A stretch of DNA of 64,000 bases from a virus: the IMG/VR virus record IMGVR_UViG_3300000115_000007, positions 27,664-91,663 of that record; one strand, 5' to 3'. Of this stretch, positions 2,926 to 64,000 are shown piece by piece. Under the pieces are notes generated by a model, which was not told where the DNA came from, did not search any database, and worked only from the letters and a program-made list of their open reading frames with translations. Both the position numbers and the translations under genes were made by a program. The stretch's first letter is position 1, and each line of letters opens with the position of its first letter.

Positions 2926-2928
2926 CTG

Positions 2929-2957: not shown

Positions 2958-2982
2958 GATCTTAAATCAAATGGAGAGTATC

Positions 2983-3449: not shown

Positions 3450-3451
3450 TA

Positions 3452-32300: not shown

Positions 32301-34592
32301 GGTTGGTTAGGAACTGATATTAATGGTCTACAAATTGGTGATCAAACCTCGGCAATTGCTGGCACACAACAAACTAGTACATCGTTTTTCTCTCAAAATA
32401 CAAACGACTGGATAACTTCTGGATTTGATAGAACAACATCAGCCATTGTAAATAGAGTCGTAGCGTCTGAAACAATAAGAACGAGCTTAGGATCTAAAAT
32501 AATTGATATTGCTCTTATTCCCTTTATGAGAAGCCGCCGTGTTTTCTTTGAAGCTGTTGGTATAAGACCAAATGCTCAAATGTTTGCTTACTTAAATGGT
32601 AGAAAAATTAATGACTTTGTAAGATCTGAAAACTTTTCTCGGATTAATAGCGGAAGAGTTGAGTATGAAAGTCCAAACTTATTGACAGCACATCCAGCTG
32701 GTGCAAGTTCCCTTATTTCTTCCGGGGCCGGAACCTTATCTGGGTCATTTTTTATCCCTCATAATAGTACTACTAAGTTTAGATCTGGAAATGCTGAATT
32801 TAAATTGCTTGACGTAACTGAGACCGTCGAAAACGGAGGGGTGCCAGGATCTTCTGCTGTCGCTACATATCAATCCGCCGGCCATATTCAAACATGGCAA
32901 GAAGAAATATTATCGACTAGACACCTTACAGTTGTAGGAACCCGCGTTACCACAGGATCGAGCCGAGTAATAACTAGGAGAGAAGCGAGCGATAGCCGCG
33001 AGTCTCAAAGAAATGATCCATTAGCACAATCATTTTTTATAACTAACCCAGATGGCGTTTACACAACAAAGGTAGATCTCTTCTTTAAAACTAAAGATTC
33101 TACTTTACCAGTATGGATTGAGTTACGGCCGTTAGTGAATGGTTATCCAGCGTCAAATACTATTGTTCCAGGCTCAAGAAAATATTTAACTCCTTCAGCT
33201 GTTAGCATTTCAGATGATGCTAGTATACCAACAACATTTGAATTTGATGAACCAATTTTTCTAAGTGGTAATACTGAATATGCGGTTGTATGTATAACTG
33301 ATAACACTAGTTATAATTTATGGACTTCATTTATGGGTGATTTTGAATTAGGATCGACATCGGCAAGAATTACAAAACAACCTTTCCTAGGATCTTTCTT
33401 TAAATCTCAGAATGGTACAACATGGGAAGCGTCTCAAGAACAAGATATGAAATTTGTTTTGTACAGAGCAGTGTTTTCTTCGTTAACGGGTGAAGTTTAT
33501 CTTAAAAATGCAGATCTGCCTTTAGCTCATTTATCGGCTAATCCTATTGTTACAACTGCCGGATCAGCATCCGTAAGAGTTATGCATAAAAATCATAACT
33601 TATTTGTCGGTGATAAAGTTACTCTTGCTGGAGCTGGCACATCAGCAATTGGGACAATCACACAGTCGCAAATTAATACAACACATACTATTACGCATAT
33701 TGATCCAACTGGGTATAAATTTACATGTGCTGGAGTAACAGCCGGTAATGTTACTGCCGCTAAAGGCGGTGATGGAGCAATGACTGCAACTAAAAACATT
33801 CAGGGTAATACTGTTCATCCTATTGTTCAAACATTAGCTCCTTCAAATACTTCAATAACGGCATCTGGGAAATTCTATAGCGGATATTCGTCTGTCGCAC
33901 TCGAAACTCCTTATCAAGCTCCGGTTGATCCACAAGGTAACGCATTAGGATATAGCTCAATAGCGCTTAATCAAAAGAATTTCTTTGATAATCCTATTAT
34001 GGTTGCTTCAGCAACAAAAGAAGATGATACTTTAGCAAATGGTGGCTTAGCTGGTATCGATACTGCATCAATAAAAGTAGCCTATACAACTGCAAGCGAT
34101 TTTGTGTCGCCTGTTATTGATTTACAAAGATGTTCTATTGTATTGACAAAAAATGAAATTGATAGACCAATTGGATCGACTACTGCTGGTTATAATGTCG
34201 TATTTGATTATGCAGCAGAAACTACGCCGTTTAGTGGTAGTGCATTATCTAAACATATCACAAAGCCAATAACATTAGTTAATACTGCTGTTGGTTTAAA
34301 ACTACTTCTTGCTGCTAATAGGCCTGCTGGTTCACTTATTGATATTTACTATAAAACCGGAACTGAAGATACTGAATTATCTTCAACAAACTGGACCTTA
34401 GCTTCAATTGATACCCCGGTGTCTATTTCAGATAATCCATCAGTTTATAAAGAGTACAGTTATTTAATTGGTGGGGATACTGGTACTATTGAAGCATTTA
34501 CTACTTTTCAAATAAAAATTGTATTTTATGCAAATAACTCTTCAAAGGTTCCAACAGTTAAAGATTTGAGAGTCATTGCATTAGGTGTATAA
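29355..34592 (+). CDS. large baseplate/tail-fibre protein (DUF4815-like N-terminus)
   Basis: A 1745-aa protein. The N-terminus (FKRILFNPRRALQARELTQS, then IIQKDIERFGRNIFKDGAMV and PGGV) matches DUF4815-type virion proteins of marine T4-type phages. The rest is Ser/Thr/Gly-rich beta structure with several domains, including a jelly-roll-like segment near residues 1230-1350 (FFKTKDSTLPVWIELRPLVN). It occupies the gp9/gp10 position, where proteins connect the baseplate to fibres. It probably forms trimers. No enzyme motif was seen. Role inferred from position and N-terminus. Confidence 0.7.
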   Translation: MTTTFSENLMSSTYKDDFSDSAGFKRILFNPRRALQARELTQSQTIIQKDIERFGRNIFKDGAMVNPGGVTINSGIEFIKLDPTDNNTPDSFPNASELEGLTFTGSTSGVTARIIQVVDGVAGDLTNNPPTLYIIYTGSGSITPTTSAIKFTPGETITSGTISYVTQTTNTTGNPAIGTGIRVSIASGDYFTQGFFCNSKSQSLMVSKYSSDYTGVIGFKVVQEIVSASDDDALFDNQGAFPNVAAPGADRFRITLSIIDQANITSLDTFIFVANIVKSQIVEQATGFNQYNKINDMVAQRTAEESGDYLVNPYFMTYDSASSLTLNAVLSPGKAYVNGHRINHPVQTELTVNKALTTNLDVLPAGSVLPNSSIAVEYGSYVIVSAIEGALPLDGNGTKTTYPLVEIHNNTTPSGAGTTIGTCRIRHIDQLGSNYRLFIFDVNVTSSFRNAKTLVFGSDDTHFATLVLESSVAVLKEASENNLLFPLPVNRPKAITNMSFSAQRKYTGTASGAGSIVFTSPAAGETFSNANDWVVMSNGVKLADSAWGISAGGVATQSVTISGSGISAGHAVEAIVYIQQSAVIRTKTITPVTSTIAIDGSTFIAPLGKNDIIEMVTIREGTSGGDDVSDQFTFDNGQRDAFYGQGQLIRKSTSSLTGNLYVEFTHYSHSSGNCFAVNSYPAPYGSIPSHRLRDGSIIELRDVLDFRSAKKADGTFDDAGGAAGGVLSELPQNDTIIIAKVEHFLPRQDRIVVGEDGVIKNLEGVSSILPKLPYLPPKHLELYRASLNGGTTSISDMTVQYMENKGYTMKDIGKIDKRVDLLEETVALSLLELDTNQLEVLDDNGNNRTKSGFLVDNFKDQFHSDTSNDEYKASINPKTMTLHPAFTEANVGMIYDDAASTNTVLKGDNVYLAHTHSAYISQSKVSRTENVNPFMISSYTGSITLSPQSDEWKVDRQAAAKIIDGGTRLNTNQAQLHDQSEWGWLGTDINGLQIGDQTSAIAGTQQTSTSFFSQNTNDWITSGFDRTTSAIVNRVVASETIRTSLGSKIIDIALIPFMRSRRVFFEAVGIRPNAQMFAYLNGRKINDFVRSENFSRINSGRVEYESPNLLTAHPAGASSLISSGAGTLSGSFFIPHNSTTKFRSGNAEFKLLDVTETVENGGVPGSSAVATYQSAGHIQTWQEEILSTRHLTVVGTRVTTGSSRVITRREASDSRESQRNDPLAQSFFITNPDGVYTTKVDLFFKTKDSTLPVWIELRPLVNGYPASNTIVPGSRKYLTPSAVSISDDASIPTTFEFDEPIFLSGNTEYAVVCITDNTSYNLWTSFMGDFELGSTSARITKQPFLGSFFKSQNGTTWEASQEQDMKFVLYRAVFSSLTGEVYLKNADLPLAHLSANPIVTTAGSASVRVMHKNHNLFVGDKVTLAGAGTSAIGTITQSQINTTHTITHIDPTGYKFTCAGVTAGNVTAAKGGDGAMTATKNIQGNTVHPIVQTLAPSNTSITASGKFYSGYSSVALETPYQAPVDPQGNALGYSSIALNQKNFFDNPIMVASATKEDDTLANGGLAGIDTASIKVAYTTASDFVSPVIDLQRCSIVLTKNEIDRPIGSTTAGYNVVFDYAAETTPFSGSALSKHITKPITLVNTAVGLKLLLAANRPAGSLIDIYYKTGTEDTELSSTNWTLASIDTPVSISDNPSVYKEYSYLIGGDTGTIEAFTTFQIKIVFYANNSSKVPTVKDLRVIALGV

Positions 34593-37799: not shown

Positions 37800-37802
37800 A
37801 TA
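37795..37802 (+). promoter_or_regulatory. T4-type late promoter TATAAATA
   Basis: A perfect TATAAATA overlapping the stop of radical SAM A and 26 bases before the gene for the Cys-His-repeat protein. It is the only perfect late promoter I found inside the cassette. Confidence 0.75.
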
Positions 37803-37828
37803 CACCTATATAACGAAAGAGAAATGAA

Positions 37829-40181: not shown

Positions 40182-40182
40182 T

Positions 40183-47270: not shown

Positions 47271-47655
47271 ACAAGAAGTTTATCATAGATTAAATAAAAA
47301 TCATACAGATGATTTGAATAAAGTAGAAATAGTTTTTGATGATAATCAAGAGGTTATTATTAAAAATGCTATTCGACACTTTAATGAGAAAGTAGATGAA
47401 TGGTTATATCCAGCCAAGAGTTATGTTGTAGCAATATGTTATGCTTATTGGATTAGTAGAGATTTTAACGAAGATTTTTATGATTTGTTAAATGAACCAA
47501 TGCTTTTAGCTGGTAATGATCCATATTTTAAAACATACGAAAATAGTAAGGAAATATACGATAGTATACTTAACAATATAGATTGGCCATTGATGGTAAT
47601 TCACGGTATGGTTCGGGATATAAAAGGATATTATGATGTTGAAATCGGGTATTAA
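47251..47655 (+). CDS. unknown cassette protein 3
   Basis: A 134-aa, acidic, aromatic-rich helical protein overlapping both neighbours (20 and 23 bases). No cysteine motif except a single CYAYW. The size and helical nature would suit a partner or recognition protein for an adjacent enzyme, which is inference only. Confidence 0.6.
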   Translation: MKEWQVKQEVYHRLNKNHTDDLNKVEIVFDDNQEVIIKNAIRHFNEKVDEWLYPAKSYVVAICYAYWISRDFNEDFYDLLNEPMLLAGNDPYFKTYENSKEIYDSILNNIDWPLMVIHGMVRDIKGYYDVEIGY

Positions 47656-48196
47656 TCAGTGTTGGTCAACACCAATATATAAAACTCAAATTACTTCAGA
47701 CCAATGTGAAGAATTAGTTCAAGAAATTTTACTTAGTACTAATATTATGAAACCACAGGCTGAATACGACAGCGGTACACTTACAGATAAAATTCCATTG
47801 TTAAAAGATTTAGCTATAGAAAAATATACAGAATTTTTTAAAGAAGTATTTAGCATCGACCTAAATGATATGTCTTACGAATTTAGTTCTTGGTTAACAG
47901 GATCTCAAAAAGGATATTCAATGAATATTCATAATCATTCTGGAGCTCAATTTGCTGCAGTATTTTATGTTCTTTCTGACGATATTGATAAAGGTGGAGA
48001 ACTAGTGGCGTACGATCCAAGAGCAAATGCCAACAGAGGTTATTTTGGTAAAACCGCTGAAATGTTTAAACCTATTGAGTACGCACCTAAAACTGGTGAT
48101 GTAATAATTATGCCAGGATATGTTTATCATCTAGTAAAAACATATCACTCTAATCTTAGACTAGCTGTTCCAGTCGATATTTTTTTAAAATCATGA
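47633..48196 (+). CDS. 2OG-Fe(II) oxygenase (phage T4-type family, PF13759-like)
   Basis: A 187-aa protein of the family often annotated as 2OG-Fe(II) oxygenase in T4-type phages: CWSTPIYKTQI at the N-terminus, SWLTGSQKGYSMNIHNHSGAQ, then FYVLSDDIDKGGEL, MPGYVYHLVKTY and RLAVPVDI. The proximal motif is HNH (100-102), the distal His is 166 and Arg176 may hold 2-oxoglutarate. It differs from the three short paralogues earlier in the cassette. Last gene of the operon, with late promoters for fibre genes beyond it. Confidence 0.78.
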   Translation: MMLKSGINQCWSTPIYKTQITSDQCEELVQEILLSTNIMKPQAEYDSGTLTDKIPLLKDLAIEKYTEFFKEVFSIDLNDMSYEFSSWLTGSQKGYSMNIHNHSGAQFAAVFYVLSDDIDKGGELVAYDPRANANRGYFGKTAEMFKPIEYAPKTGDVIIMPGYVYHLVKTYHSNLRLAVPVDIFLKS

Positions 48197-48333: not shown

Positions 48334-48723
48334 ATGGCTCATTACGAAGATATAGAAATTGATCAAGGAACTGATGTTGTAATTCAATTGGAACTATATA
48401 ATCCAGACGGATCAAGAAAAACTTTACTTAACTGGGATTCAGATTTAGGAAGCTTTCACAATAATTATGACATGAGAGGTTATATTAAAAAAAGCTATAA
48501 CTCAACAGACTCAGCAGTTCAGTTTGGATGTACCGCATACAATCCACAAAATAAAGAAAATATTTTAGAGCTATCTTTAACTAATGTACAAACCGATGCA
48601 ATGCGCGCCGGCCGGTTTGTGTATGATGTTGAGATAGCGTCTACCGATAGTGACACTGGCATTGTAACAGTAGAACGCATTTTACAAGGGAATTTGACAT
48701 TAGTACCTTCAGTTACTAGATAG
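48334..48723 (+). CDS. small virion structural protein
   Basis: A 129-aa beta-rich protein starting AHYEDIEIDQGTDVVIQLEL and ending with RFVYDVEIASTDSDTGIVTV and RILQGNLTLVPSVTR. This all-strand layout, ending in a VERxLQGxxxxxPxVTR pattern, is common in small structural proteins next to fibre genes of marine phages. Probably a fibre-connector or baseplate-upper-type domain. Driven by the paired late promoters upstream. Confidence 0.65.
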   Translation: MAHYEDIEIDQGTDVVIQLELYNPDGSRKTLLNWDSDLGSFHNNYDMRGYIKKSYNSTDSAVQFGCTAYNPQNKENILELSLTNVQTDAMRAGRFVYDVEIASTDSDTGIVTVERILQGNLTLVPSVTR

Positions 48724-49028: not shown

Positions 49029-52000
49029 ATGGCATCTATAATCCAGATTAAAAGATCAGCTACACAGACCATACCGACAAGTTTAGCGATAGGTGAAATG
49101 GCGTATTCATACGCTGATAGTGCAAATTCTCCAGGTACTGCTAAACTTTATATCGGAATAGGTCCTCCAGTCGACAGTGCCCATATTGTGCCCAACATGG
49201 CCACACAAATTGTGACAATTGGTGGTGAATATTATACTAATTTACTTGGAAGTGGTATGCCTGGTATTTCAGTAGCAAATCAATATGTATTATTAGATTC
49301 AAATAGAAAAATAGACTATCAAGCATTTGGTAATTTAGTAGCCGACTCCGGTACAATTAGTAAATTTATGTCTGATAGTGCAGCAATTGCATATGCCAAT
49401 ATTGACTCAGCCCATATCCTAACTCTTTCTGGAAGAAGTATTACTTTTGACTCTGGCGTAATAAGTCAATTTTCAGCTGACAGCGCAAGACTTACATACG
49501 CTCATATCGATACATCTTATCAACCTCTTATCACTGGACCGGATCAGATTATTATTGATCCTACGGCTGTAGGCGACAATACTGGCCGTGTTTTAATTAA
49601 AGGTGATTTACAGGTTGATGGTACACAAACTATTGTTAATTCAACAACTGTATCGACAAACGATATTAATATTACAGTTGCTGATGAAGCTGTTGATAGT
49701 GCTGCAGCAGATGGTGCCGGCTTATCGGTATTTGGTGACAGTTTTTACGACCGTGCCCATCTTAAATGGAATGCTACAACAAATAAATGGAATGTTAATC
49801 CTGGTATAGTAACATCGACTATCGATGCCACTGATAGCGGAGATATTCAAAATCTCACTGGTGACTATGTAGGTTATGCTAGAGGCATTATTAGTCAGTT
49901 CATGTCTGATAGCGCAAGAATTGAACATCTAGTTACTAACACTCAACATAATCAAAATACAGAAACTGTTGGTACTGCATCAACTCAAAATCTTGTACTA
50001 CGATCGTCGTTACCGCAAAGAGTATTATTTTCTGATAGTATTGATGTTGTAAGAGGCGTTGATAATTTCTTATATGTTGAATCCGATTTAGCCAATGATA
50101 ATGATAATAATAAGTACTTCAGAGATGATAAAAAAGAAGGTCTTTTTATTGGTCGTCAGAGATTAAGAGATTCTGGTTATTATAATACATTTATTGGCGC
50201 TGATGGTACTGTAAGAGGAACTACTTTTAAATTTGGTGAAGATGGTAAACCAACTGCTGTACCTGGAGGCTTTGACGGCTACACTGGATTTACGTATCCT
50301 GATATGCCATCGATGGGACAAAGAGAATTAGATTTTTATGGTTTAGAAATTAGAGACAGCGGCCTCTTTTCTACATTACAGCAAAACGTATTTAAAACAG
50401 ATATGAGTGTTGAATCTGCAGCGACATTAAGCCTAACTGGTGACTCGCTTGGCATGATTAGAATTCTAGGATCATTGGATAGTTCATTAATCGAACTTAG
50501 AAAAGATGGATCGATTAACTTTGTTGGAGGTTTATTTCAAGATAATTCAGAATATATCGGTGGTGGTTTATTTAAACCAGTTCCAGGAAATAATATTGGT
50601 GATGTGGCTTATCGTCCTGACCCTACTGTTGCGGCTCAAACTGGGGCAAATCCTTTAGGATTAGGAAACAGACTTGCATATGGCATAGCAGAGCCTAAAC
50701 TTGGTTTTGATATTACTAGTAAATCGTTTCAAGTATCTGCTAAATTTGATCCTACTACAGTTGCTTCTAGAAAGCTTTTTCCATCTAATCTTCAAGCTAC
50801 TGCAACTATGGCTGCTTTTGGACAAGATATTGATGATAGTAATAAAGCTCGCTTACTATTTGATGGTAATGCAGCAAGATTTAGAGCTGGATATTTTGAC
50901 TATGAAGATATCCATGTTAATAATATGGGATTGTATTCAAACGCGTTTGGATTCTCATCTAGAGCGTTTGGTGACTATTCCTTTGCTGCAGGTGATTCAG
51001 CTAAAGCACTATCTAATTATTCTATTGCTATGGGTCAAAAACCTCTTGTGTCTTCCGGAGCGGCGAATGGTATTGTTTTAGGTGGTCTCAGCTCAGTTAA
51101 TACTAATGGTATAAGTACGCCTGAAACACAATTTGCTGGAGCAGCGATTGGATTTAATAATAATATAACAGGCGATTTAGAAAATGCTATAGCAATCGGT
51201 CGCTCAAATACTCTTGCTACTACTGCTTCATGGTCATCTAGTCAATCACATTATCAGAATGTAGCTATCGGCATTGATAATAGCGTATCTAGTATAGTAG
51301 GCGCAAATGTTATATTAGGTGCAAATAATAAAATATTTGGTGATGGTAATGTTACAATCGGCGGATCATTCGATAATGGAGTGGCTGGAAGTAATAAGAT
51401 TGGTGTTGTTGGAACAAATGCTACTGCAAATTATACATTTGGAGAAAACAATACTGTTGCGGGTAGCTTTAACTTTACAATTGGTGAAGGCAATACGGTT
51501 GTAGATGCCTTAACTAATAGAACACTAACATTTGGTCATACCAATACAGTTTCAGCTGATGATGCTATGGCATTTGGCAGACAGAATACAGTTGCAGGTG
51601 AAGGCTCTATGGCATTTGGCCGTGGTGTTACTATTACAGCTGCTGCTGATTATTCAGTGGGCATGAACTTAAATGGTAATCCAGCAGAATTTGCTGAAAT
51701 TAAAGATGCTAACTTCTTCTCTATTCAAAATGGTAACGTAAGTATTGGTTCTGAATCAGATATGTCAGCTATCGGTTTTGCATCAGGTATAGGCAACCTT
51801 TATGTCGATGGAGACATAATTTATACCGGGGCGGTGTTAAAAAGAGCCGGCGCCGGTGTTGCTGCTGATAACCCATGGACAGATGATGGTTTTTCAGTAA
51901 CATTTACTCAAGTGCCAGCTGACGGATCAAAAGAATTAGGTATTAATGTACCGGTACCATACTCATCTACTGAAATTGTAACCGATTATGGTAATAGTCA

Positions 52001-55000
52001 TAAAGGTGGATTTATGATCCACGGCGGATGGGATGGCGCATGGAGAGATCCATCCACTAATAGAAATACTGAAGCTGGTCCTGCAACTATAGAGATGTTT
52101 GATTCAGCTGGTGGCGCATCGACTTTTGCAAGTATTGCATCAAATAATCCAAGCGTATTTGCATATTATCCTCCAGCAGGAATCTTAAGAGCTGGTAGAG
52201 TTAAAGTTACAGATCAGGATCAAGACTCAATTGGTGAAGGATCTATTTCTATTGGCTATTATCATAAAGTACACTCAAATTATGGTGTTGCTTTAGGTGG
52301 TAAAGAAGCAAGTATCATAGCCACTAGTATGACTGCTGACCATTTCGGTACAATTATTTCTTCAACATCAAGTAAAGTAGGTGGTGTAGGTGGTAAACCA
52401 GGCACTAATTCTGGTTTGCGGTCATTTATTATTGGTGGTTCTGGCGCTGAAATTGGCGGATCAAAGTCTGCTATTTTAAACTCAGAAACATCAAAAATTG
52501 ATAGCGATGCTGAAAAATCTATAATTATAAATGCTAATAGTGCAAATATTTATGGCGATAAATCTGTAATTCTTGGTGGCCAAGGTTCTACAATTGGCGG
52601 ATCTAAATCTTCAGGTACCTCATCTACGCCTACATACTCTATGATTTTAAACTCAGTATCTTCAACAATAGATAGTGCGTCAGATTATTCAACAATTATA
52701 AACGGTAATTCATCTACTAAAATATCAGGACAGTCTTCTGCAATAATTGGTCATGGTATTGTAGAAGGCAATAATGCTGCTATAATTGGTAAGGGTAGAA
52801 TCGATGGTAATAGTTCGTTTATACTTGGGTACGGCGGTACTACTACTGCTGTTGTAAAAGGCAACAGCAGTTTACTAATTGGTAAAGGCACTATTCGTGG
52901 AAACAATTCTACGATGGTTGGTACTACTGGCGGTGAAGCAAACGGTAATAACTCACTGGCAATTGGCGGCTCAGGTTCGAAAGTACATGGTATTAATAGT
53001 ATTTCAATAGCAAATGGTACTGGTGATAACTATATAAGAGGCAGTAGGTCAGTGTTTATTGGCCATGGTAACACTGATTCTTCTGCGGCTACGAGCGCGT
53101 TGTTTGGTACTCCTACTAGTGGTACAAGAACTAGAAACTTCTTTATAGGTCGCAATAATGTCGTAGACTCAGTTGGCCATGCTGTATCAGATAACTACAT
53201 CTTTGGTCACGGTAACATCGTATCAACTACTAACGCACAATCAGTATTTCTTATTGGTAAAAACACTAAACTTGATACTAATACCACTAATACTATTATC
53301 TTATCTGCGCCATCTAGCTCGGCTAACGTTGGCAAAAATAATAATACAAAACTTGCTGTCGGTAAAAACACTGCCCGCGGTACAATGGACGTAGCAGGTG
53401 GAAATATTTATTTTGGACATAAGTCTGGTTTGCGTGTTGAAGACGTAGATGGAGACGGAAATCCTATTACCCGCGCGGCTGACAGTTTTGATGCTCAAAT
53501 CTATATTAACGATCAGCCTATCCGTGATTACATAATGAACATTGACCCGGATGGGGAAGATGTCGTATTAATCCCTCAACCTGTTGTACTGCCACTAAGT
53601 ACTGTTACAGAAATTGAGCAAACTAATCCAGCAATTTTAGTCGTAAAGAATACAAATGGATTACTAACAGACGGTACAACAATTAGATTTTCACTACCTT
53701 CAGTTACTGGAATAGGTCAATTCTTAAACGATTCAGTTTATACTGTTACAAATGTTGTTGGCGGTCTGGGTGATAGCTTCTCGCTGACAAACTTCGATAA
53801 TACTTTAAATGTAAGCACATTGAGTGGAGCTTCAAGACAGAAAAATACAGAAATCAAAACATTAAGTAGCACGATTGGTGATCCTAATTATTATGACGTA
53901 TCTCAATGGGGTCTGCCCGATGCATCACCAACTCCGGCGCTACCGTTTGGCCCTTATATTTCTTTACAGCCAGCACCTGTTACAACAACAGCTCCTACAC
54001 ATTTTTTAAATTCAGTAATTATTGATAGCGATTTAATTGTAAAAGGAACTGTATCTTTCCAAGATTCCCTTAGTGTTGCAAAAGATGCTATCATCAATGG
54101 CAATCTAGATGTTCAAACCGGATATATTGATGGTGGTGGCCATTTAAACATAGCATCTTTTGCCACATTTGGTGACAGTGTTAATGTCAGTGGTCGTCTT
54201 ACAGTTGATGGACCATTTACTGGTGGAACATTTGCGCTATTTACTGATAGTATTACTATGGCCGGCGACCTCTCTGGAGTTGAAAATCTAACAGCGTCCG
54301 GAACCGGCACATTTGGTGATAGTGTTAACATTACTGGTAAATTGACTGTATCTGATAGTATATCTGTAGGAGGAAGCGTTAACATTGTTAACAATCTTAC
54401 AATCGGAGGATCAGTCCGTTGGTTAGATAATTCTTATGACGATAGTTTTTACATTGGTAACATGTCATTTGATAGTTATGTTCTTAGACCTGGAAGTAAA
54501 ATTTTTACTGCTGTCACAGGTATGTTCGATACTGATTATGTTCAGATGCGTGTTGACTCTGAAAATAACTGGGTAGTAATGCCTGATGCATTAGTTTATA
54601 ATCCAAATGATAAACCGAAAGCTGTTGCCATAGGCTTATCAAACGATGCGACTTGGACTGGTCAATATAAAACGATGCAAGATGGAAATATTTATCCAGG
54701 TACTTTCCAAACTACAGAATATCAGCTGTCAAGTGCATTTAACAAAGGTGATATTCACAACGGCGGAACAAGTGGAGATTCTATTGGCCTAGACATGCAA
54801 GGACGTCTTAACGTTCGTACAAATGCATTTTATATGGCTAATAACACTAAGCCACCAATTATGGCAAATGGTGTTGGATGGCCTACTAAAGGCTGGATGA
54901 CTCAAGATAATTATATTGACAGACCATACATTTTAAGTATTGTAGATTCTGGTCACATTAAAGGTATTGCAGATTCTGACCACATTAAAAGCGCTGCTAA

Positions 55001-58000
55001 TAGAGGATGGATTCGGTCTCATATCGATTCAGCCTTTGTCATTAGTATTTGGGATTCTGATTATTATTGGAAGCACGATAGCTTTAACGCCATTTATATT
55101 GGCGTACCACACAATGGTGGATATGGAGCAAAAGGCTCTCGTTATGATGGAAATGTAAAACTCGCTCTTAACCAAACTGGCCAAACCGCTACTCATAATT
55201 TAGACATCGTGGGCGATGGTAAACTTTCTAAATCTTTAGAAGCACACGGTGATTTTATTTGGGCAAAGAACAACTTAAAAGTTGGTAATTTCACTGGTAT
55301 TCGTGATTCTAGTGTAAACGAAAGCAAACTTATTGGCACTAGAGGCCTTTATGTTGGTGACAGTGCCCATCTGCGTCAAGGTGTGTTAGTCCTTGGTCAC
55401 GATAACATTCCAAATGGTTCATACACATATACTATGGATAGCCAATATTGGAATGTTAAGCAAACAGTATCTTTAAATAATGCTAATATTGCTGATGGAT
55501 TTAATTTAGATGGATCGCCTAGTGACAGTCATGTAGTAATGTCATTTAGTGATTCTATTAATTTTGGCAGAACTATTGTTAGAAGAACAATTGCTGATGG
55601 AACAAGTTCAAATCTAGTTCGCGGAGTAGATTACGATTCTCTTGGAAATAGAGCATTATTTGATTCGGCGATATATGGTTACGGACAAGCTAAATACGAT
55701 CCATTTATGATCGATCCAAATAGATTGAAAAAAATCTATGTTAAAGAAGCTTCATTATTACCAACTGATTTAAGTCTAGTTGCAAGAGAAATGCATACTG
55801 GACTTGATGAAAATTCTAAAAATTCTCTCATTATAGGTAAATTTATCACTGCCCCAGGCGGCGGATCAATAATATCAAAAGATTCAAATTACTTTGATGA
55901 CAATGGTGGTAGCTTAAGTGTTCAAGCCGGCCTTGCTGTTCATGGTGTTACTGATCCAATTATAAAAGTATATAAGGAAGACGGCGCAACACTTAAAGGT
56001 CAGTTAAGAAAAGGTATTGACTTTGAGATTACGGATTCTTATCAAGTAAGAGTTTTCACTGATACGATTTTGCATCCTGGAATTTTCCCAGGCGGTGTAG
56101 GTGTAGGCGAATCTATTGATGATGCAATTATCAAGTTAGATGATGTAATTGTTATTGAAGATCGTAGAAACGAACTCACAAGTCAAACTGAATTATTTGG
56201 TGTAACTAATATTTACGGAAACATTACACTTGGTAATAAAGCCATGGCCATGGCTGCACGTCCGGGCTACCCACACACGGGAGCTAAGTTTACTACGCAT
56301 GACAGCTTTATTGTTAAAGGCGGAATGACATTTGAGCAAGGTCAAAGACTTCAATACAATGCTGATGTTCATGTTGATTCAACAAAAACATTCTTCTTTG
56401 GTCCAAAAACACCAGGGGATGTTACAACAACTACACTATTTGAGCCTCTTCTCGAATCCGATGGTGCCGGCAATTTAATATCTGGCAGCTTGGTTCATGC
56501 CAGATATAACGGTAAATCACAAGCGACTGATGCTTCAGGCAATCTGCTTTATACTACAGTTGCAGAATCTGATAACTTTGGTCATATTTTACATACTCAT
56601 GAAGCGACCCTACGTGAAACAAGTATGGACTCCCATATCGTTAATCAAATAGCAAGTCGTTCTTTAACTATTGGCGAAAATAATACAATTTTCATCGGTC
56701 CGTCTGTTAACAGCGCACCGTACTTTAAAGCTGAGAGTGATGGTATTGGAAACTTGCTGGGATGGGATGAATCAGCTGGTAGTTACAATGGGACATTTAC
56801 TCCTAAAAATGCTGCTGGTGGTTATGATATTGATGCAACGAATGGTAATGGACCTGATCCCAGAATATATACTACTGACGTATATAGAAGTTCTATAGAT
56901 TCTCATATCATTAATACGATAGCTACTGTTCCAACCGGAATGTCATTATCTACAGATACTGATTTTACAGTTCATGGCGATGTAATAGTAAAAGAAGATT
57001 TAAAAATAAGTCAAAATCTCTACCTTGACTCAGCTCATAGAATGTTCACTAGCACTCCTATTTACTACTACAAATATGATTCTGATGGAAATTATACAAC
57101 TCCAAAATCAATAACTGGAGTTGTTAGAACAAGAGATACTGGTGTTTTTAACAATTATCCAGCCAATCAAAAATTTACCAGATATCAAAAATTATACATT
57201 GACAGAGTCGATGGGGTAATTCAACAAATTGAGTCTGATGGACTTGGCAATCTTATTAAATTAAAAAATGCTGATGGTACTGACAAGATTGCTCAAATTG
57301 GTCTAGATTCACACATTGAGCGAATTATTGATTCTGACTATATTGGTGTACGACTAGAAACTCCATGGAATATTTTGAATGTTGATGACGGTGTTGGTGG
57401 AGTTCAAAAGAAAATATATTATGATGAATACGGTGCGGTAATCGTTGGTCAAAAAGATGCACTTCTTATTGGTGATTTAGCTACTAAATTCATTGTTGAT
57501 TCAGGTAATGCAGTATTCTTATCTTCTGGTATAGATGCTTCGGCAAGTGAAGTACACCGGACAAAGGGTCAAGTTCCAAACTTTGGTACAAAACCACGTA
57601 TGATGTGGATCCCAAAACGTGGAGCATTTAGAGTTGGTGGTTTAAATGTCGGTTCAATTACTGGAAGGCAAAACGATTGGGAAGATAGTAATGTTGGTTA
57701 CGCATCTATCGGTATTGGTAATAATACTAAAGCGTCAGCTTTCTCAACCGCAGTTGGTTATGATGTTGTTGCTGGTGTCACCGCTGGTGATCCACTAGCA
57801 ACTCCAGTTGAATATGAAACAGCAGAAGCTGTCGCATTTGGACATACTATTAAATCACCACATAGTGCAAGTATTGCATTAGGTAGTCATATTACTCACC
57901 ACGAAGATACTCAATATACTGATATTGGTATGCTATCAATTGGTACTCAGTTACAGTCAAGAAATGCTGGGAATATTTCAATTGGTAAAGGAATTAGTTT

Positions 58001-61000
58001 ACCTCAACTTACCGATACTTCTGGTAGCTATGAAAATATATTAGCTATTGGTGAAGCTATTCAAATATATGGCAAAAACAAAGAAACTGTTGCTATTGGA
58101 CGTGGATTAGAAACGTCAGGAGACAATGCTAATAATACAGTGCTAATTGGGCGTGGTGTTAATAGTACGGGTTCAAATAATGGCCTTGCAATTGGTTATA
58201 ACACTTCGTCAAATGCAAGTCTTTCAGGAGCACCTTCGGCAACTCATGCTGTATCGATTGGTAAAAATACTGTAGCGGCTTCAGCCAAGGCCCTTTCTAT
58301 TGGTTATGGTGCTAGTGTTACTGGAACTAAGGGAATAGAAGCAGTATCAATTGGTAGAAATACTTCTGTAACTGCTAATTATGGATTTGCCCTTGGAACA
58401 TCTACTTCAGTCGGTGGCAATGCAACCAGTACTATCGTAATTGGTATTAGCTCTACAGCCTCAAGCAACGCCAGCAACGCCTTAGTAATTGGTAAAAGCT
58501 CTTCAGTTAGCAGTAACGCGACAGGAAGTGTGGTTGTTGGTCAGAGCTCAAGTATTGGTTCAAATATGAAAAGCAGCGTTGCGCTTGGTGTAAGTAACAC
58601 TATGTCTGGTAACGGTACTGGTGCGGTAGCAATGGGCCGCCTTGTCAATGTTTCTGGAAGCTCGGGTATACGAGTTGGAATTGGTAGCAACGTTACGGCA
58701 AGAACTGGTGTTGCAATTGGTTTAAATTCATCAGCAAGCGGTAGCGGGTCTAATTCAGTAGCTATTGGTAGCGGTAACTATGCTTCTTATGGCGGCGTTG
58801 CAATTGGTAAAAACGTTTCACAATCCGGAAGCGGTAGCGGATTTGCTATTGGTAGAGATATTACAACATCTAGTAAAGGTATGGTAATTGGTATTAATTC
58901 CTCTGCTACTAGATCGAGCTTAGCAATAGGTAGTGGTGCAACAGCTAGCGGAACTAATTCAGTATCACTTGGTACCGGAACCGTAGCTGGCTCTCCTGGT
59001 TCGACTAAATCAAACATTGTGGCGGTTGGCTTTAGGACAACCGTAACAGGTAATAGTACAAACTCAATAAACATCGGTTCGAAAAATTTAATATCAGGTA
59101 ATAAAGAATCTGTTGCTGTTGGATCTTCTAATATTATTTCTGGTAACGGCACCCGCGGTATTGCTATTGGTATTCAGAACGTTGTAAGTAAAGAAGGTAT
59201 TGCAATTGGTAGATCAAACCGTTCTACTAAATCTCAATTGGTTATGGGAGTTGGTAATGTTTCAGCTCCAGCCTCTGGCAACGGCGATTGGGAAATAACT
59301 ATTGGCTCATATAACACTGGTAATTTCTCATCTAATATAATAGGTAAATTAAATACTAATAATACGCGAGTTAATATCTTTGGTAATAATAACACTAATA
59401 GTAACTCTGGCGCTCAATCAAATCTTGCTAAATCATATATCTTCGGTATAACTAGTACGATTTCCACTGGCGGTGGTATGGTTTATGGTAAAACTAGTAA
59501 TGTTAGTCATGAAGGTCAGTCATATGGTATTCAAAATACTGTAACTCGCGAAGGTATTGCGTTTGGTTATAATAATAACATAAACAACGTAATGTCTAGT
59601 GCTACAATGTCTATAGCATATGGTAGAGATAATACTGCAAATTCAGAAGGTATTGCGTTTGGTTATAATAATACCGTAACAAACTCTGGTATTGCTTTTG
59701 GACGCGATGCTACAGCTGATGAAAATGGTATTGCTCTTGGTAGATCGCTTACAGCATACGGCACTAATAATTTAGCACTTGGTTCAAATATTACAATCGG
59801 ATCGGTTGGAAATGTTAATTTAAATAGTGTCGCAATTGGTCTTGGTACGACTGCAAATACAGCTACCGAAACAGGTGTGTTCAGTGTTCAAGGTGGTCAA
59901 ACAACATTAAGTGTTACTGCTTTTGATGAGAAAAATAATGTGCCTGCAACTAATAGCGGTGGTTTTGGACATCAGCATAAAAACTTATTAAAACCTAATC
60001 TACAGGTTGGTACTCCATTTGCGTTAGAAGTTAATGGTCCGGTGAATATTACTGGAACTGGTGTTAATGGAAATAAGAACGAGTTATATATCCAAGGGGA
60101 GAGAATAATTGATTATGTTCAATTATTTGCTGCTGATTCAACCTGGATTAAACATATTGCTAATGCGCCTTATGTAAAAAATATAATTAATAAAGAATAT
60201 CTAAGGACAACACAGACTTCAGATCAATTCTTCCACCATAATAATACTCATCTGAATTTTAATGGTCAAGGTAATGTTGGTATTCAAATTGCTAATAACG
60301 CACCTCAATATAATTTAGATGTTAATGGTTCTATTAACTTTGGTAGTTTGTATTGGAATGGCGATGTAGTTATTCCATCTGGCGGATACGATAGTACGAT
60401 ATATTTAAATCATTATACTAATGAAATACAATATATCATCGATCCGGATTCCGCTGAGATTTATTTTGATTCTGCATATGTACAACAGCGTCAAAAATTT
60501 GGGGGCAAAGGCGATGGATATGATTCAATTGCTGTACAAAATTTAATTGATGAAGTTTACATTAATGATCTTGTATATCATGTATGGCCAGATAGTGATT
60601 ATATTGATGGTAAATTAGATAGTGCTGTTAGTGAAGCTTATATTGCGTTCAGAGTTGAAAATCCTGTAGGAATAGGTCAAAGCAGATATTCATTTGGAAC
60701 AAGAGCTGGTAATGCACAATTTAATAATCCAGTAGCTGTAAATCAACAATTCTATGGCACAAGAACTGGTATTGGTAAAGCCATTAATAACGTGAATGGT
60801 AGCACTGTAGCTATGACTGCTGGCGAAGACATGCTAGATATTATGAATAAAAATCTCACAACATCAGGTGCTGGTCTTGGTGTTGCTGGTAGAGTAGTTA
60901 TTGCCGGACCTTCAGCCACATCAACTGAGCCTGCGCTGCAAATATTCAACGGTTATATTGAAGTTGATGGTGAAAGACTCACGACAGACAAACTATTTAA

Positions 61001-64000
61001 CGAGAAAATTTCCTATGTAACATACGAGAAAACTAAAAATATTGCTATTAAGAAAGCTACAGCTGATTATGACTTTGATGTTTTAGGTAAAATCAATGCT
61101 GATAGCGGACTATATATTGGTGGTGTTGATATTGCAGATATATACGATTCAGATTGGGTCGAAAGTATTGTTGATCTTGAATTCTTAAAATCTGTTGTAG
61201 ATAGCGATTATATTCATAGTGCTGCCGATTCTACTTGGATTAAATCTGATGTTGGTGGTGGTGTAACCCAATCATATGTTCAAGGCTTTATCGATAGCGC
61301 ACATATTCATAATATTCTCGCTGGTGGTATGAATGATCTTCTTGTTAAAAATATTACTCCTGACAATGATCTTGTATACGATTTAGGTAGTCCAACAAGA
61401 AGATTTAAAGATCTTTATTTAAGTAACAGCACTATAAATCTAGGTACTATATCATTAAGTGCTACTGCAACTGATGGTCTTTCCGTGAAAGATAGTGGAG
61501 GTAATACACTAAAATTCAAAGGTATTGACTCTGATGCTGCTAGCGGTATGATTGACTCAGCATATGTTCAGTCGAGAGCCAATTCTGAATATATTAGAGG
61601 TGTTGCTGATAGTGCGTATATTCTTTCTGCCGCCGATAGTGAATATGTTGAACATATAATTCATAGTAGATTTAATAATCTTAATACAAGCATCGTTCCA
61701 TTAAATGATGTTGTATACGATTTAGGTAGTCCAACAAAAAGATTTAGAGATCTTTATTTAAGTGGTAATAGTCTTAATCTTGGTGGTACAACTCTGTCGG
61801 CTGGCCCTAATGGAATGGAAGTTAAAGATGCTAACGGTATCGCATCAAAAGTAGTAGGTATTGACTCAAATGTTGCTGTACCTCTTATTATATCAAATGT
61901 GTTAAGCACTGCTAACGAAGCATATATTAAAGGATTCGCTAACGAAACTTATATTAAAGGCATTGCGGATGAAACTTACATTAAAGGATTCGCTAACGAA
62001 ACTTATATTAAAGGCATTGCGGATGAAACTTATATTAAAGGCATTGCGGATGAAACTTATATTACGTCATTTATTGATAGCGCATATGTCGCATTACGCA
62101 ACCATGTTGATAGCGCGTTTGTCTCTGGGCTAATAAGTAATATTGGCGTGACTGATACACGTATTGGTTCGCAGAATATTAATTTTGGTCCACATACTAT
62201 TACTGCTGATAAATTAGTTTATAATAATGCTTATCCAAATCTTGCAGCATTACCGAATGCAAATAATTATCAAGGTAATTTTGTTCTCGAGAATGGTGTT
62301 CCAAAGTATTCATATGCTGGAAACTGGATTACAATTCCTGATGTTGCGTTGGTCAAACTTTATGCTGACAGCGCAGCGGCTGCTCTTGTTGATGCGGCTC
62401 CTGATACACTAAATACATTGAATGAGCTAGCTGCAGCATTAGGAGATGATGCTAATTTCTCAACTACTCTAACAACTAGTATTGCTGCTAAACTTCCATT
62501 GGCTGGTGGCACCATGACCGGTGCATTAGACATGGGCAGTAATAACATTACCACAACTGGTAAAATGTTATTTGCTAATGTTTATAGTGCTGAAGGAGAT
62601 CTCCCAAGCGCTTCTACATATCATGGTATGTTTGCTCACGTGCACGGAACTGGGGCTGCCTACTATGCTCATGCCGGTGCATGGGTTAAATTAGCAAATA
62701 ACGCTACAACAATTGCTGGTTATGGTATTACTGATGCTGTGGATTCATTTGCTTCAATTTCTAATATTCCAACAACAATTGCTGGTTACGGTATTACTGA
62801 TGCTGTGGATTCATTTGGTTCATTAACAAATAAACCAACTACGCTTGCTGGTTATGGTATTACTGATGCTGTGGATTCATTTGCTTCATTAACAAATAAA
62901 CCAACTACGCTTGCTGGTTACGGTATTACTGATGCTGGTTCTGGAAGTTTAGATTCATCATTGGCAGTACAGCTTATCGATAGCGCATATGTATCAGCTA
63001 GATCTTCAACTACTCTTAATGCTCTAACTGATGTTAATGCTCCGTCACCGACAGATGGTCAAGCATTAGTATATAATACAGCGACAAGTAAATGGATTCC
63101 CGGCGCAGGCGGTGGCGGCGGTGGTGGCGGAGCGCCCAGTGTTGATTCAGCCTTTGTTCAAAGCATTATAACACAAAACGGAGTTGTTGGACAATATTTA
63201 CCATCGTATGTTAACTATAAATTTAATGCTGATTCTGGTCAAACTGTGTTTACTGGTACAGATGCTAATGGCGAAATATTTAAATTAGGTGATAGTAATT
63301 ATCAAGTATTTAATAACGGTATTCGCTTAGTTAACTTAAATGATTATACTGTAAATTCTGCTACAAATACTTTAACAACAACATATGGCTTAGATTCTGG
63401 CGATGAAATTATTGTTAACACTATTGAAAATGTTTTGGTTGGTGATGCACTATTAGCTAATGCCGATGCTACAACTATTATTGATAGTTCATATGTCTTA
63501 GCTAGATCCTCAGCCGGAGTTACTACTCTTGGTGCTTTAACTGATGTTAACGATGCTGGAAAAGCACTAAATAGTATTTTACTATATGATGGTTCAGGTA
63601 GTTGGGTTTCAGGAGCTCTTCCTGCTTCTACTGATTCGAATGCTGTTGTTCAGCTAATTGATAGCGCATATGTTAATGCACGAGCTCAGCTAACAAATGT
63701 ATCAAATAATTATTATATCAATAAAACAACTTTCCAAAATTATCAGTATACCGCTGATTCTGGTCAAACAGTGTTTACTGGTGCTGATAATAATGGAAAA
63801 ACTCTAACAGTTGAAGATAGTAATTTCCAAGTATTTAACAATGGTATTAGATTGCTGAGTGGTAATGACTATACTATGAATACTGCAACTAATACATTAA
63901 CACTTGCTGCCGGATTTGAAGCAGACTCTGGTGATGATTTTGTTATTAATGTGCTAAATCAAGGAACTGCTCAACCTCCTAATTTAGTTGTAAGAGACGC
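49029..64000 (+). CDS. giant tail fibre/adhesin, 5' part (at least 4990 codons, runs off the window)
   Basis: One frame stays open from ATG 49029 to the end of the window without a stop. The N-terminus (MASIIQIKRSATQTIPTSLA, then GEMAYSYADS) is typical of marine phage fibre proteins. Several blocks of YadA-head-like repeats follow (units such as SVAIGSGNYASYGGVAIGKN), roughly at 50943-53400 and 57640-59830, separated by regions with DSAYV/DSAHI units. Near 61378 and 61718 it has fibre-type DLGSPTxRFxDLYLS segments. Close to the right edge come GYGITDAVDSF repeats and a Gly8 linker (63109-63132). It would form a very long trimeric receptor-binding fibre, made late from TATAAATA. The end lies outside the window. 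Confidence 0.85.
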   Translation, partial: MASIIQIKRSATQTIPTSLAIGEMAYSYADSANSPGTAKLYIGIGPPVDSAHIVPNMATQIVTIGGEYYTNLLGSGMPGISVANQYVLLDSNRKIDYQAFGNLVADSGTISKFMSDSAAIAYANIDSAHILTLSGRSITFDSGVISQFSADSARLTYAHIDTSYQPLITGPDQIIIDPTAVGDNTGRVLIKGDLQVDGTQTIVNSTTVSTNDINITVADEAVDSAAADGAGLSVFGDSFYDRAHLKWNATTNKWNVNPGIVTSTIDATDSGDIQNLTGDYVGYARGIISQFMSDSARIEHLVTNTQHNQNTETVGTASTQNLVLRSSLPQRVLFSDSIDVVRGVDNFLYVESDLANDNDNNKYFRDDKKEGLFIGRQRLRDSGYYNTFIGADGTVRGTTFKFGEDGKPTAVPGGFDGYTGFTYPDMPSMGQRELDFYGLEIRDSGLFSTLQQNVFKTDMSVESAATLSLTGDSLGMIRILGSLDSSLIELRKDGSINFVGGLFQDNSEYIGGGLFKPVPGNNIGDVAYRPDPTVAAQTGANPLGLGNRLAYGIAEPKLGFDITSKSFQVSAKFDPTTVASRKLFPSNLQATATMAAFGQDIDDSNKARLLFDGNAARFRAGYFDYEDIHVNNMGLYSNAFGFSSRAFGDYSFAAGDSAKALSNYSIAMGQKPLVSSGAANGIVLGGLSSVNTNGISTPETQFAGAAIGFNNNITGDLENAIAIGRSNTLATTASWSSSQSHYQNVAIGIDNSVSSIVGANVILGANNKIFGDGNVTIGGSFDNGVAGSNKIGVVGTNATANYTFGENNTVAGSFNFTIGEGNTVVDALTNRTLTFGHTNTVSADDAMAFGRQNTVAGEGSMAFGRGVTITAAADYSVGMNLNGNPAEFAEIKDANFFSIQNGNVSIGSESDMSAIGFASGIGNLYVDGDIIYTGAVLKRAGAGVAADNPWTDDGFSVTFTQVPADGSKELGINVPVPYSSTEIVTDYGNSHKGGFMIHGGWDGAWRDPSTNRNTEAGPATIEMFDSAGGASTFASIASNNPSVFAYYPPAGILRAGRVKVTDQDQDSIGEGSISIGYYHKVHSNYGVALGGKEASIIATSMTADHFGTIISSTSSKVGGVGGKPGTNSGLRSFIIGGSGAEIGGSKSAILNSETSKIDSDAEKSIIINANSANIYGDKSVILGGQGSTIGGSKSSGTSSTPTYSMILNSVSSTIDSASDYSTIINGNSSTKISGQSSAIIGHGIVEGNNAAIIGKGRIDGNSSFILGYGGTTTAVVKGNSSLLIGKGTIRGNNSTMVGTTGGEANGNNSLAIGGSGSKVHGINSISIANGTGDNYIRGSRSVFIGHGNTDSSAATSALFGTPTSGTRTRNFFIGRNNVVDSVGHAVSDNYIFGHGNIVSTTNAQSVFLIGKNTKLDTNTTNTIILSAPSSSANVGKNNNTKLAVGKNTARGTMDVAGGNIYFGHKSGLRVEDVDGDGNPITRAADSFDAQIYINDQPIRDYIMNIDPDGEDVVLIPQPVVLPLSTVTEIEQTNPAILVVKNTNGLLTDGTTIRFSLPSVTGIGQFLNDSVYTVTNVVGGLGDSFSLTNFDNTLNVSTLSGASRQKNTEIKTLSSTIGDPNYYDVSQWGLPDASPTPALPFGPYISLQPAPVTTTAPTHFLNSVIIDSDLIVKGTVSFQDSLSVAKDAIINGNLDVQTGYIDGGGHLNIASFATFGDSVNVSGRLTVDGPFTGGTFALFTDSITMAGDLSGVENLTASGTGTFGDSVNITGKLTVSDSISVGGSVNIVNNLTIGGSVRWLDNSYDDSFYIGNMSFDSYVLRPGSKIFTAVTGMFDTDYVQMRVDSENNWVVMPDALVYNPNDKPKAVAIGLSNDATWTGQYKTMQDGNIYPGTFQTTEYQLSSAFNKGDIHNGGTSGDSIGLDMQGRLNVRTNAFYMANNTKPPIMANGVGWPTKGWMTQDNYIDRPYILSIVDSGHIKGIADSDHIKSAANRGWIRSHIDSAFVISIWDSDYYWKHDSFNAIYIGVPHNGGYGAKGSRYDGNVKLALNQTGQTATHNLDIVGDGKLSKSLEAHGDFIWAKNNLKVGNFTGIRDSSVNESKLIGTRGLYVGDSAHLRQGVLVLGHDNIPNGSYTYTMDSQYWNVKQTVSLNNANIADGFNLDGSPSDSHVVMSFSDSINFGRTIVRRTIADGTSSNLVRGVDYDSLGNRALFDSAIYGYGQAKYDPFMIDPNRLKKIYVKEASLLPTDLSLVAREMHTGLDENSKNSLIIGKFITAPGGGSIISKDSNYFDDNGGSLSVQAGLAVHGVTDPIIKVYKEDGATLKGQLRKGIDFEITDSYQVRVFTDTILHPGIFPGGVGVGESIDDAIIKLDDVIVIEDRRNELTSQTELFGVTNIYGNITLGNKAMAMAARPGYPHTGAKFTTHDSFIVKGGMTFEQGQRLQYNADVHVDSTKTFFFGPKTPGDVTTTTLFEPLLESDGAGNLISGSLVHARYNGKSQATDASGNLLYTTVAESDNFGHILHTHEATLRETSMDSHIVNQIASRSLTIGENNTIFIGPSVNSAPYFKAESDGIGNLLGWDESAGSYNGTFTPKNAAGGYDIDATNGNGPDPRIYTTDVYRSSIDSHIINTIATVPTGMSLSTDTDFTVHGDVIVKEDLKISQNLYLDSAHRMFTSTPIYYYKYDSDGNYTTPKSITGVVRTRDTGVFNNYPANQKFTRYQKLYIDRVDGVIQQIESDGLGNLIKLKNADGTDKIAQIGLDSHIERIIDSDYIGVRLETPWNILNVDDGVGGVQKKIYYDEYGAVIVGQKDALLIGDLATKFIVDSGNAVFLSSGIDASASEVHRTKGQVPNFGTKPRMMWIPKRGAFRVGGLNVGSITGRQNDWEDSNVGYASIGIGNNTKASAFSTAVGYDVVAGVTAGDPLATPVEYETAEAVAFGHTIKSPHSASIALGSHITHHEDTQYTDIGMLSIGTQLQSRNAGNISIGKGISLPQLTDTSGSYENILAIGEAIQIYGKNKETVAIGRGLETSGDNANNTVLIGRGVNSTGSNNGLAIGYNTSSNASLSGAPSATHAVSIGKNTVAASAKALSIGYGASVTGTKGIEAVSIGRNTSVTANYGFALGTSTSVGGNATSTIVIGISSTASSNASNALVIGKSSSVSSNATGSVVVGQSSSIGSNMKSSVALGVSNTMSGNGTGAVAMGRLVNVSGSSGIRVGIGSNVTARTGVAIGLNSSASGSGSNSVAIGSGNYASYGGVAIGKNVSQSGSGSGFAIGRDITTSSKGMVIGINSSATRSSLAIGSGATASGTNSVSLGTGTVAGSPGSTKSNIVAVGFRTTVTGNSTNSINIGSKNLISGNKESVAVGSSNIISGNGTRGIAIGIQNVVSKEGIAIGRSNRSTKSQLVMGVGNVSAPASGNGDWEITIGSYNTGNFSSNIIGKLNTNNTRVNIFGNNNTNSNSGAQSNLAKSYIFGITSTISTGGGMVYGKTSNVSHEGQSYGIQNTVTREGIAFGYNNNINNVMSSATMSIAYGRDNTANSEGIAFGYNNTVTNSGIAFGRDATADENGIALGRSLTAYGTNNLALGSNITIGSVGNVNLNSVAIGLGTTANTATETGVFSVQGGQTTLSVTAFDEKNNVPATNSGGFGHQHKNLLKPNLQVGTPFALEVNGPVNITGTGVNGNKNELYIQGERIIDYVQLFAADSTWIKHIANAPYVKNIINKEYLRTTQTSDQFFHHNNTHLNFNGQGNVGIQIANNAPQYNLDVNGSINFGSLYWNGDVVIPSGGYDSTIYLNHYTNEIQYIIDPDSAEIYFDSAYVQQRQKFGGKGDGYDSIAVQNLIDEVYINDLVYHVWPDSDYIDGKLDSAVSEAYIAFRVENPVGIGQSRYSFGTRAGNAQFNNPVAVNQQFYGTRTGIGKAINNVNGSTVAMTAGEDMLDIMNKNLTTSGAGLGVAGRVVIAGPSATSTEPALQIFNGYIEVDGERLTTDKLFNEKISYVTYEKTKNIAIKKATADYDFDVLGKINADSGLYIGGVDIADIYDSDWVESIVDLEFLKSVVDSDYIHSAADSTWIKSDVGGGVTQSYVQGFIDSAHIHNILAGGMNDLLVKNITPDNDLVYDLGSPTRRFKDLYLSNSTINLGTISLSATATDGLSVKDSGGNTLKFKGIDSDAASGMIDSAYVQSRANSEYIRGVADSAYILSAADSEYVEHIIHSRFNNLNTSIVPLNDVVYDLGSPTKRFRDLYLSGNSLNLGGTTLSAGPNGMEVKDANGIASKVVGIDSNVAVPLIISNVLSTANEAYIKGFANETYIKGIADETYIKGFANETYIKGIADETYIKGIADETYITSFIDSAYVALRNHVDSAFVSGLISNIGVTDTRIGSQNINFGPHTITADKLVYNNAYPNLAALPNANNYQGNFVLENGVPKYSYAGNWITIPDVALVKLYADSAAAALVDAAPDTLNTLNELAAALGDDANFSTTLTTSIAAKLPLAGGTMTGALDMGSNNITTTGKMLFANVYSAEGDLPSASTYHGMFAHVHGTGAAYYAHAGAWVKLANNATTIAGYGITDAVDSFASISNIPTTIAGYGITDAVDSFGSLTNKPTTLAGYGITDAVDSFASLTNKPTTLAGYGITDAGSGSLDSSLAVQLIDSAYVSARSSTTLNALTDVNAPSPTDGQALVYNTATSKWIPGAGGGGGGGGAPSVDSAFVQSIITQNGVVGQYLPSYVNYKFNADSGQTVFTGTDANGEIFKLGDSNYQVFNNGIRLVNLNDYTVNSATNTLTTTYGLDSGDEIIVNTIENVLVGDALLANADATTIIDSSYVLARSSAGVTTLGALTDVNDAGKALNSILLYDGSGSWVSGALPASTDSNAVVQLIDSAYVNARAQLTNVSNNYYINKTTFQNYQYTADSGQTVFTGADNNGKTLTVEDSNFQVFNNGIRLLSGNDYTMNTATNTLTLAAGFEADSGDDFVINVLNQGTAQPPNLVVRD
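50943..53400 (+). repeat. YadA-head-like repeat block 1 in the giant fibre
   Basis: Degenerate protein repeats of about 13-20 residues with the pattern [SA]-x-A-[FIM]-G-x-x-x-x-V-x-G, for example DDAMAFGRQNTVAGEGSMAF and GNNAAIIGKGRIDGNSS. These resemble the left-handed beta-roll of trimeric autotransporter heads. A non-repeat stretch lies near 51830-52200. Confidence 0.65.
57640..59830 (+). repeat. YadA-head-like repeat block 2 in the giant fibre
   Basis: The densest part of the fibre: dozens of units of about 14 residues such as NSVAIGSGNYASYGGVAIG, SSLAIGSGATASGTNSVSLG and GIAFGYNNTVTNSGIAFGRD. Ile/Val-Gly pairs recur every turn, as in YadA-type heads. The DNA is diverged between units, so this is an old expansion. 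Confidence 0.75.
61917..62063 (+). repeat. 27-base tandem repeat in the giant fibre
   Basis: Five full 27-base units plus a partial sixth encode 9-residue blocks alternating ETYIKGFAN and ETYIKGIAD; the first reads EAYIKGFAN. Units 2 to 5 are nearly identical at the DNA level, pointing to recent duplication. Confidence 0.85.
62700..62940 (+). repeat. 66-base tandem repeat (GYGITDA units)
   Basis: Four units spaced exactly 66 bases apart (anchors at 62712, 62778, 62844 and 62910) encode 22-residue blocks of the type TLAGYGITDAVDSFASLTNK. GYGITDA repeats are common in phage tail fibres and often recombine. Confidence 0.85.

Follow-up and report, generated by a model that had tools for sequence, protein, structure and literature searches.

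At the 3' end of the window, by which we mean the whole 64,000-nucleotide stretch analysed (positions 27,664 to 91,663 of the 91,663-bp virus record IMGVR_UViG_3300000115_000007), a single reading frame runs through 4,990 codons without encountering a stop. What kind of protein does it encode, are its repeats related to the heads of bacterial adhesins, and is it one gene at all? The frame begins with an ATG, contains no Ns, and is open at its 3' end because the window ends where the virus record ends; the original prediction of a single frame of at least 4,990 codons that leaves the window is thus right in coordinates and size. The start codon and the N-terminus agree with those of L085, a relative with 91% identity. 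No continuation of the frame was found at the start of the contig, this other end being occupied by unrelated genes, and no exact 29-base match to the 3' end of the gene was present among the viral contigs searched. In local alignments, the last repeat unit of the window protein pairs with positions 234 residues from the end of the complete homologue G001 and 245 residues from that of G002. Therefore, about 235–245 C-terminal residues are probably missing at the contig end and, as judged from these alignments, the full-length protein should comprise about 5,200 residues. It is large for a phage structural protein, as predicted, but does not set a record, given ORF101 of S-TIM4 (6,603 aa) and gp7 of P-SSM2 (5,195 aa). 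A comparison of the whole protein with PHROGs assigned it to no family.

Features of the giant gene and its surroundings in the window. Turn numbers are those of a turn profile trained on head 3 of the window protein.
Feature	Residues	Position	Strand	Basis
VrlC homologue, opens the host-recognition cluster		29355..34592	+	tblastn to HTVC008M and Mosig VrlC; phrog_358
Small gene located two ORFs before the giant; PHROG annotation 'L-shaped tail fiber protein assembly'		48334..48723	+	phrog_3304, E 1.9e-8; phrog_1084, E 2.7e-12
Giant fibre gene, cut by the contig end		49029..63998	+	4,990 codons; complete homologues in relatives
N-terminal module (MASIIQIKRS... IKGDLQVDG)	1-224	49029..49700	+	common to short cyanomyophage and pelagiphage proteins
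Head 1 (probable), ~8 YadA-like turns	~640-880 (turns ~685-864)	50946..51668	+	turn profile; Pfam YadA_head E 8e-4, sub-gathering
Head 2 (possible), ~7 YadA-like turns	~1068-1420 (turns 1076-1410)	52230..53288	+	turn profile; Pfam YadA_head E 6e-3, sub-gathering
Conserved shaft	~1500-2880	53526..57668	+	residues 1801-2500 47-51% identical to four relatives
Head 3, ~45 YadA-like turns	~2889-3655	57693..59993	+	PDB YadA match; turn profile; structural neighbours
Seven 9-residue repeats ([ND]ETYIKGxA and similar)	4296-4354	61914..62090	+	spacing of 9
66-bp tandem repeat, 22-aa unit TTIAGYGITDAVDSF, 3.8 copies		62690..62937	+	tandem-repeat reading
C-terminal modules of tail-fibre type, cut off at the contig end		62001..63998	+	module relatives in hundreds of viral contigs

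The gene neighbourhood is that of a phage tail. The part of the window upstream of the giant contains baseplate genes of T4-like type, the VrlC homologue, another tail-fibre gene, a cluster of radical-SAM and 2OG-oxygenase genes, and the gene assigned to L-shaped fibre assembly. The window ends before the neck genes, and the downstream order was hence read in G003, a relative with a complete gene: there, the giant is followed by more fibre-like genes and then by genes for the neck (Ad2, Hc2), sheath stabiliser, terminase, sheath and portal. In pelagimyophages, a host-recognition cluster has been described between VrlC and gp14, with radical-SAM cassettes, and YadA domains are mentioned (PMC7029224). 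Judging from gene content and order, the locus of the giant gene is this cluster; the cluster fibres of HTVC008M and Mosig share with it the location from VrlC to the neck and the neighbouring 2OG-oxygenase and radical-SAM genes (PMC7029224). According to gp6, the nearest cultured phages are C48C1 (40%) and HTVC008M (34%), and the source virus, which is uncultured, is a marine myovirus of T4-like type with affinity to the pelagimyophages. A bacterial-genome origin of the gene was rejected, since it is flanked by T4-like baseplate and neck genes and since a search of genome_contigs with the shaft detected no relative of it.

Between two fibre genes of the window, positions 36299–48196 encode about five radical-SAM proteins (SPASM/DynA-like and KedN5-like B12 type) along with several small 2OG-oxygenase-like proteins, a cluster that resembles a system for modifying peptides or proteins. 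A 187-aa protein within it (37829–38392) ends in VNVNICHASCHSSCHAARGRR; L085 has both the radical-SAM cluster and the CHxS-rich tail, which there ends in CHSSCHSSCHSSRGRR. Two further loci contain other gene groups. In L003 (contig positions 1–14000), a reading of the sequences suggests a run of genes resembling those of glycosyltransferases, epimerases and methyltransferases, along with genes for a Rieske-type oxygenase, a lipoprotein similar to the BMP family and a protein similar to transporters; in L004 (3683–6458), three adjacent paralogues of 277–338 aa have the N-terminal motif KQYSKEDEGFYI in common.

Modules at both ends of the giant recur in pelagimyophage and cyanomyophage fibres of the host-recognition cluster. 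The first ~220 residues are found in short proteins as well, for example in PSSM2_118, which is encoded directly upstream of gp13; on the grounds of this kinship, the module likely attaches the fibre to the tail. It matched no Pfam family, and a Foldseek search with its poor model (pLDDT 62) returned nothing below E 1. At the opposite end, the C-terminal modules of G003 recur in cultured pelagiphage, roseophage and cyanophage fibres, and the tail-fibre family phrog_9729 matches the C-terminal part of G003 with an E-value of 4e-25. The interior of the protein is less widespread: among the 50,697 phage records of the annotated phages, tblastn detected no match to shaft residues 1501–2833 and none to head 3, which the low-complexity filter may hide. 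Distal to head 3, a 27-bp tandem DNA repeat (61906–62064) codes for the 9-residue units. Nonads of alpha/beta coiled coils occur in the stalks of autotransporters and in fibres of phages (PMC4786415), and by resemblance to them the repeats are a candidate alpha/beta coiled coil. Repeats of yet another type were observed in the N-terminal region of relatives (L166 3060–4751, L170, L168), namely long arrays of 5/10-residue DSAYIxxADI units, which match pentapeptide-repeat proteins in PDB (E ~1e-6); their copy number differs strongly across relatives, from few to many, and the window protein has hardly any of the array.

The best reading of these data, which we regard as quite probable, is a very long trimeric virion fibre of a pelagimyophage-related T4-like myovirus, with the N-terminus on the tail, three beta-roll heads along the chain, and the tip pointing outward. 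The original prediction of a giant fibre is borne out by the tail-fibre modules at the C-terminus of relatives, by the position between VrlC and the neck genes (the latter in a relative), and by complete single-frame homologues. Because the N-terminus is shared with short phage proteins and the C-terminus matches tail fibres, we infer a polarity with the N-terminus on the virion and the tip outward; trimerisation, incorporation into the virion and receptor binding are likewise part of what we infer. The data themselves show the frame, its upkeep by selection, the similarity to beta-rolls, the order of the modules and the gene neighbourhood. According to this model, the N-terminal module would most likely anchor the fibre on the tail or the baseplate. 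Shaft modules would alternate with three YadA-type heads, each a left-handed beta-roll and the third with about 45 turns, and the tail-fibre tip modules would form the outer, C-terminal end. The whole would most likely act as a trimeric adsorption fibre, in which rigid beta-roll rods and shafts would keep the receptor-binding tip far from the baseplate. Head surfaces and tip would then touch the host surface reversibly before baseplate docking, and the contacts of the heads may be the weaker ones.

An alternative that we consider unlikely, though it deserves weighing, is that the giant helps to build the baseplate or neck of the virion, the heads being non-adhesive scaffolding spacers and receptor binding being left to the other fibres of the cluster. 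Cyanomyophages do possess giant baseplate wedge proteins (P-SSM2 gp7 and S-TIM4 ORF101), which resemble our protein in size and phage type; several more fibre genes follow the giant in relatives; and the head sequences are under purifying selection, with no diversification visible. However, gp7 and ORF101 are encoded in the baseplate region before gp8, neither has a blastp match to the giant, and their YadA-like turns do not exceed those of shuffled sequences. Moreover, the C-terminal modules are tail-fibre tips common to cultured phages. Head length is also variable, a property for which a fixed scaffold would have no use: across relatives, head 3 comprises about 28 to 45 turns when counted with a turn profile that was trained on the window protein's own head 3 and favours this protein in such comparisons, head 1 has 9–11 turns by the same profile, and head 2 is partly missing in two relatives.

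The virion-fibre reading includes heads of the bacterial-adhesin type. In the giant protein, 101 matches to a YadA-like motif were counted, compared with a mean of 34 (maximum 57) in shuffled sequences, and motif density is highest at residues 2900–3650. The turn profile matches the whole protein 65 times, as opposed to a mean of 8 (maximum 19) in shuffles, none of which contains a long run. The profile being self-trained, independent tests weigh more. In a phmmer search with residues 2901–3757, a single PDB sequence was matched, that of YadA (1P9H; E 1.2e-5), and a family profile of residues 2880–3780 retrieved 1P9H alone (E 8.8e-10). A PDB match at 9e-10 for the N-terminal DSAYI arrays of relatives was also checked, and the matches of these arrays are to pentapeptide-repeat proteins at E 1e-6. 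The Pfam model YadA_head (PF05658) is detected in all three blocks under its gathering score (best 22.1 bits versus 25). Low scores are frequent for Pfam models of short repeats.

Structural comparison points in the same direction for head 3. The AlphaFold monomer model of residues 2880–3780 has a mean pLDDT of 58, reaching about 85 only at ~3530–3590, and Foldseek E-values obtained with this low-confidence model were not significant. When its structural neighbours were realigned, the top five were without exception heads of trimeric autotransporters: BpaC (Z 16.1), BoaA (14.9), YadA (14.6), CbpF (14.5) and AtaA (14.0). Other beta-solenoids rank lower in this list, with LpxA/LpxD-type helices at Z ~6.

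It is rather improbable that these repeats are generic glycine- and serine-rich sequences which resemble YadA by composition and would fold into another beta-solenoid or trimeric beta fibre. What speaks for such an explanation is the strong composition bias in the PDB matches (11.4 bits versus a score of 27.1 for the sequence and 20.1 versus 40.1 for the profile), the low confidence of the head-3 model, and the occurrence of further beta-solenoids lower in the structural list. Yet after bias correction YadA is still the sole PDB sequence match, and the five autotransporter heads stand far above the LpxA/LpxD-type helices. Furthermore, the turns of head 3, spaced mostly 13–16 residues apart and with a fixed glycine, fit the 14–15-residue layers of beta-rolls (PMC9543794). 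Turn length, glycine anchor, PDB match and top structural neighbours are thus the features in which head 3 is like the heads of YadA, BpaC, BoaA, AtaA and CbpF.

We have good confidence that head 3 is a beta-roll; head 1 is a probable and head 2 a possible YadA-like head, the latter being the least certain of the three. The claim of bacterial-adhesin-like heads therefore stands through the 1P9H match and the five autotransporter heads that lead the structural list, while that of several dense repeat blocks needs restricting: repeats are dense in the third block only and weaker in the other two. That there are several heads is strongly supported for block 3; blocks 1 and 2 contribute sub-threshold Pfam matches and turn counts that recur in relatives. 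The largest beta-roll head solved so far, that of BpaC, is predicted to comprise 42 layers and estimated to be 20 nm long (PMC9543794), comparable to head 3. By analogy with BpaC, head 3 would form a rod of about 20 nm, and its 45 layers, if all are regular, would be slightly longer than those of BpaC.

Despite this likeness, identity as a trimeric autotransporter (type Vc) was rejected. No membrane-anchor family was detected in the last 520 residues of the complete relative G003, which stands in for the missing C-terminus of the window protein, and the relatives end in tail-fibre modules. Unlike trimeric autotransporters, the giant is encoded in a phage tail-fibre cluster and carries its heads mid-chain between shafts.

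The integrity of the gene was assessed in relatives, which were found by searching IMG/VR with both ends of the protein and then read in their own records. Six of them possess complete single-frame homologues that end in one common C-terminus: G001 (4,565 aa), G002 (5,747 aa), G003 (5,167 aa), G004 (5,716 aa), and G011 and G012, whose frames between stops measure 4,431 and 4,427 aa. The first four can be aligned with most of the window protein at 33–39% identity and are colinear with it over thousands of residues; the head-3 family is present in 13 IMG/VR contigs. Between G002 and G004, 7% of residues differ and dN/dS is 0.22 across 5,698 codons, with values of 0.17–0.32 in all modules; the frame is therefore maintained by selection. 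The G003 gene, moreover, occurs in a second, independently assembled contig, with an identical protein across 4,724 codons.

In G005 and G007 (L172 and L173), two neighbouring genes encode the homologous fibre in two pieces (4,062+1,284 and 3,823+1,151 aa). The N-terminus of this split form differs (MSISDNQKxDFLWKKLGYGATKTD), and the second gene has a fresh start and ends in the tip common to the one-piece fibres; as far as can be read from these genes, the arrangement is as expected of proximal and distal fibre parts. That the long frame is an assembly product fusing several shorter fibre genes, as the contig end that cuts the gene, the tandem DNA repeats within it and the two-gene form of G005 and G007 might suggest, is very unlikely in the light of the six complete homologues on other contigs (four of them colinear), the dN/dS values and the twice-assembled G003 gene, the last of which also led us to reject a single assembly error.

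How do these proteins relate to those of cultured phages? Using the self-trained profile, we found no runs of at least six YadA-like turns in the fibre-region ORFs examined of C48C1, P-SSM2, S-TIM4, HTVC008M, Mosig and Melnitz-3, and none of the cultured fibre-region ORFs examined attains the length of the giant, except for the baseplate giants. On this comparison, the giants form a small family with no member among the cultured phages examined. Structural proteins of giant size and phage proteins resembling YadA had been known before; the multi-head giant fibre is the new element. Two viral proteins are labelled 'YadA-like head domain-containing', A0A6J5N938 from an uncultured Caudovirales phage and A0A1V0SLC5 from Klosneuvirus. 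The former is matched by the head-3 model in Foldseek (E 6e-4), but superposition is poor (TM <0.15), and beyond this match the likeness is one of database label. S-TIM4 ORF108 is described as a 'YadA domain-containing structural protein' that mutated in adaptation to new hosts (PMC6224464). It occupies the same slot between VrlC and gp13; unlike the giant, however, it carries Pfam Mtd_N and no YadA head, its turns do not exceed those of shuffles, and it has no blastp match to the giant. The 'YadA domain' protein of the literature and the YadA-like heads described here hence share one genomic slot, but belong to different proteins.

We propose only tentatively that a single chain of about 5,200 residues strings together three beta-roll heads, the largest of them at least as long as any described, and that its reach may be tuned by the number of turns and stalk repeats, allowing multi-point contact with the host. 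If this is true, one and the same beta-roll rod would serve adhesion both in pathogenic bacteria and in the phages of streamlined marine ones, in opposite contexts: on a bacterial outer-membrane anchor in the former case, on a virion tail in the latter. The family would then constitute a natural series, from 28 to 45 turns and in one-piece and two-piece forms, in which fibre length and head number can be set against the evolution of host range.
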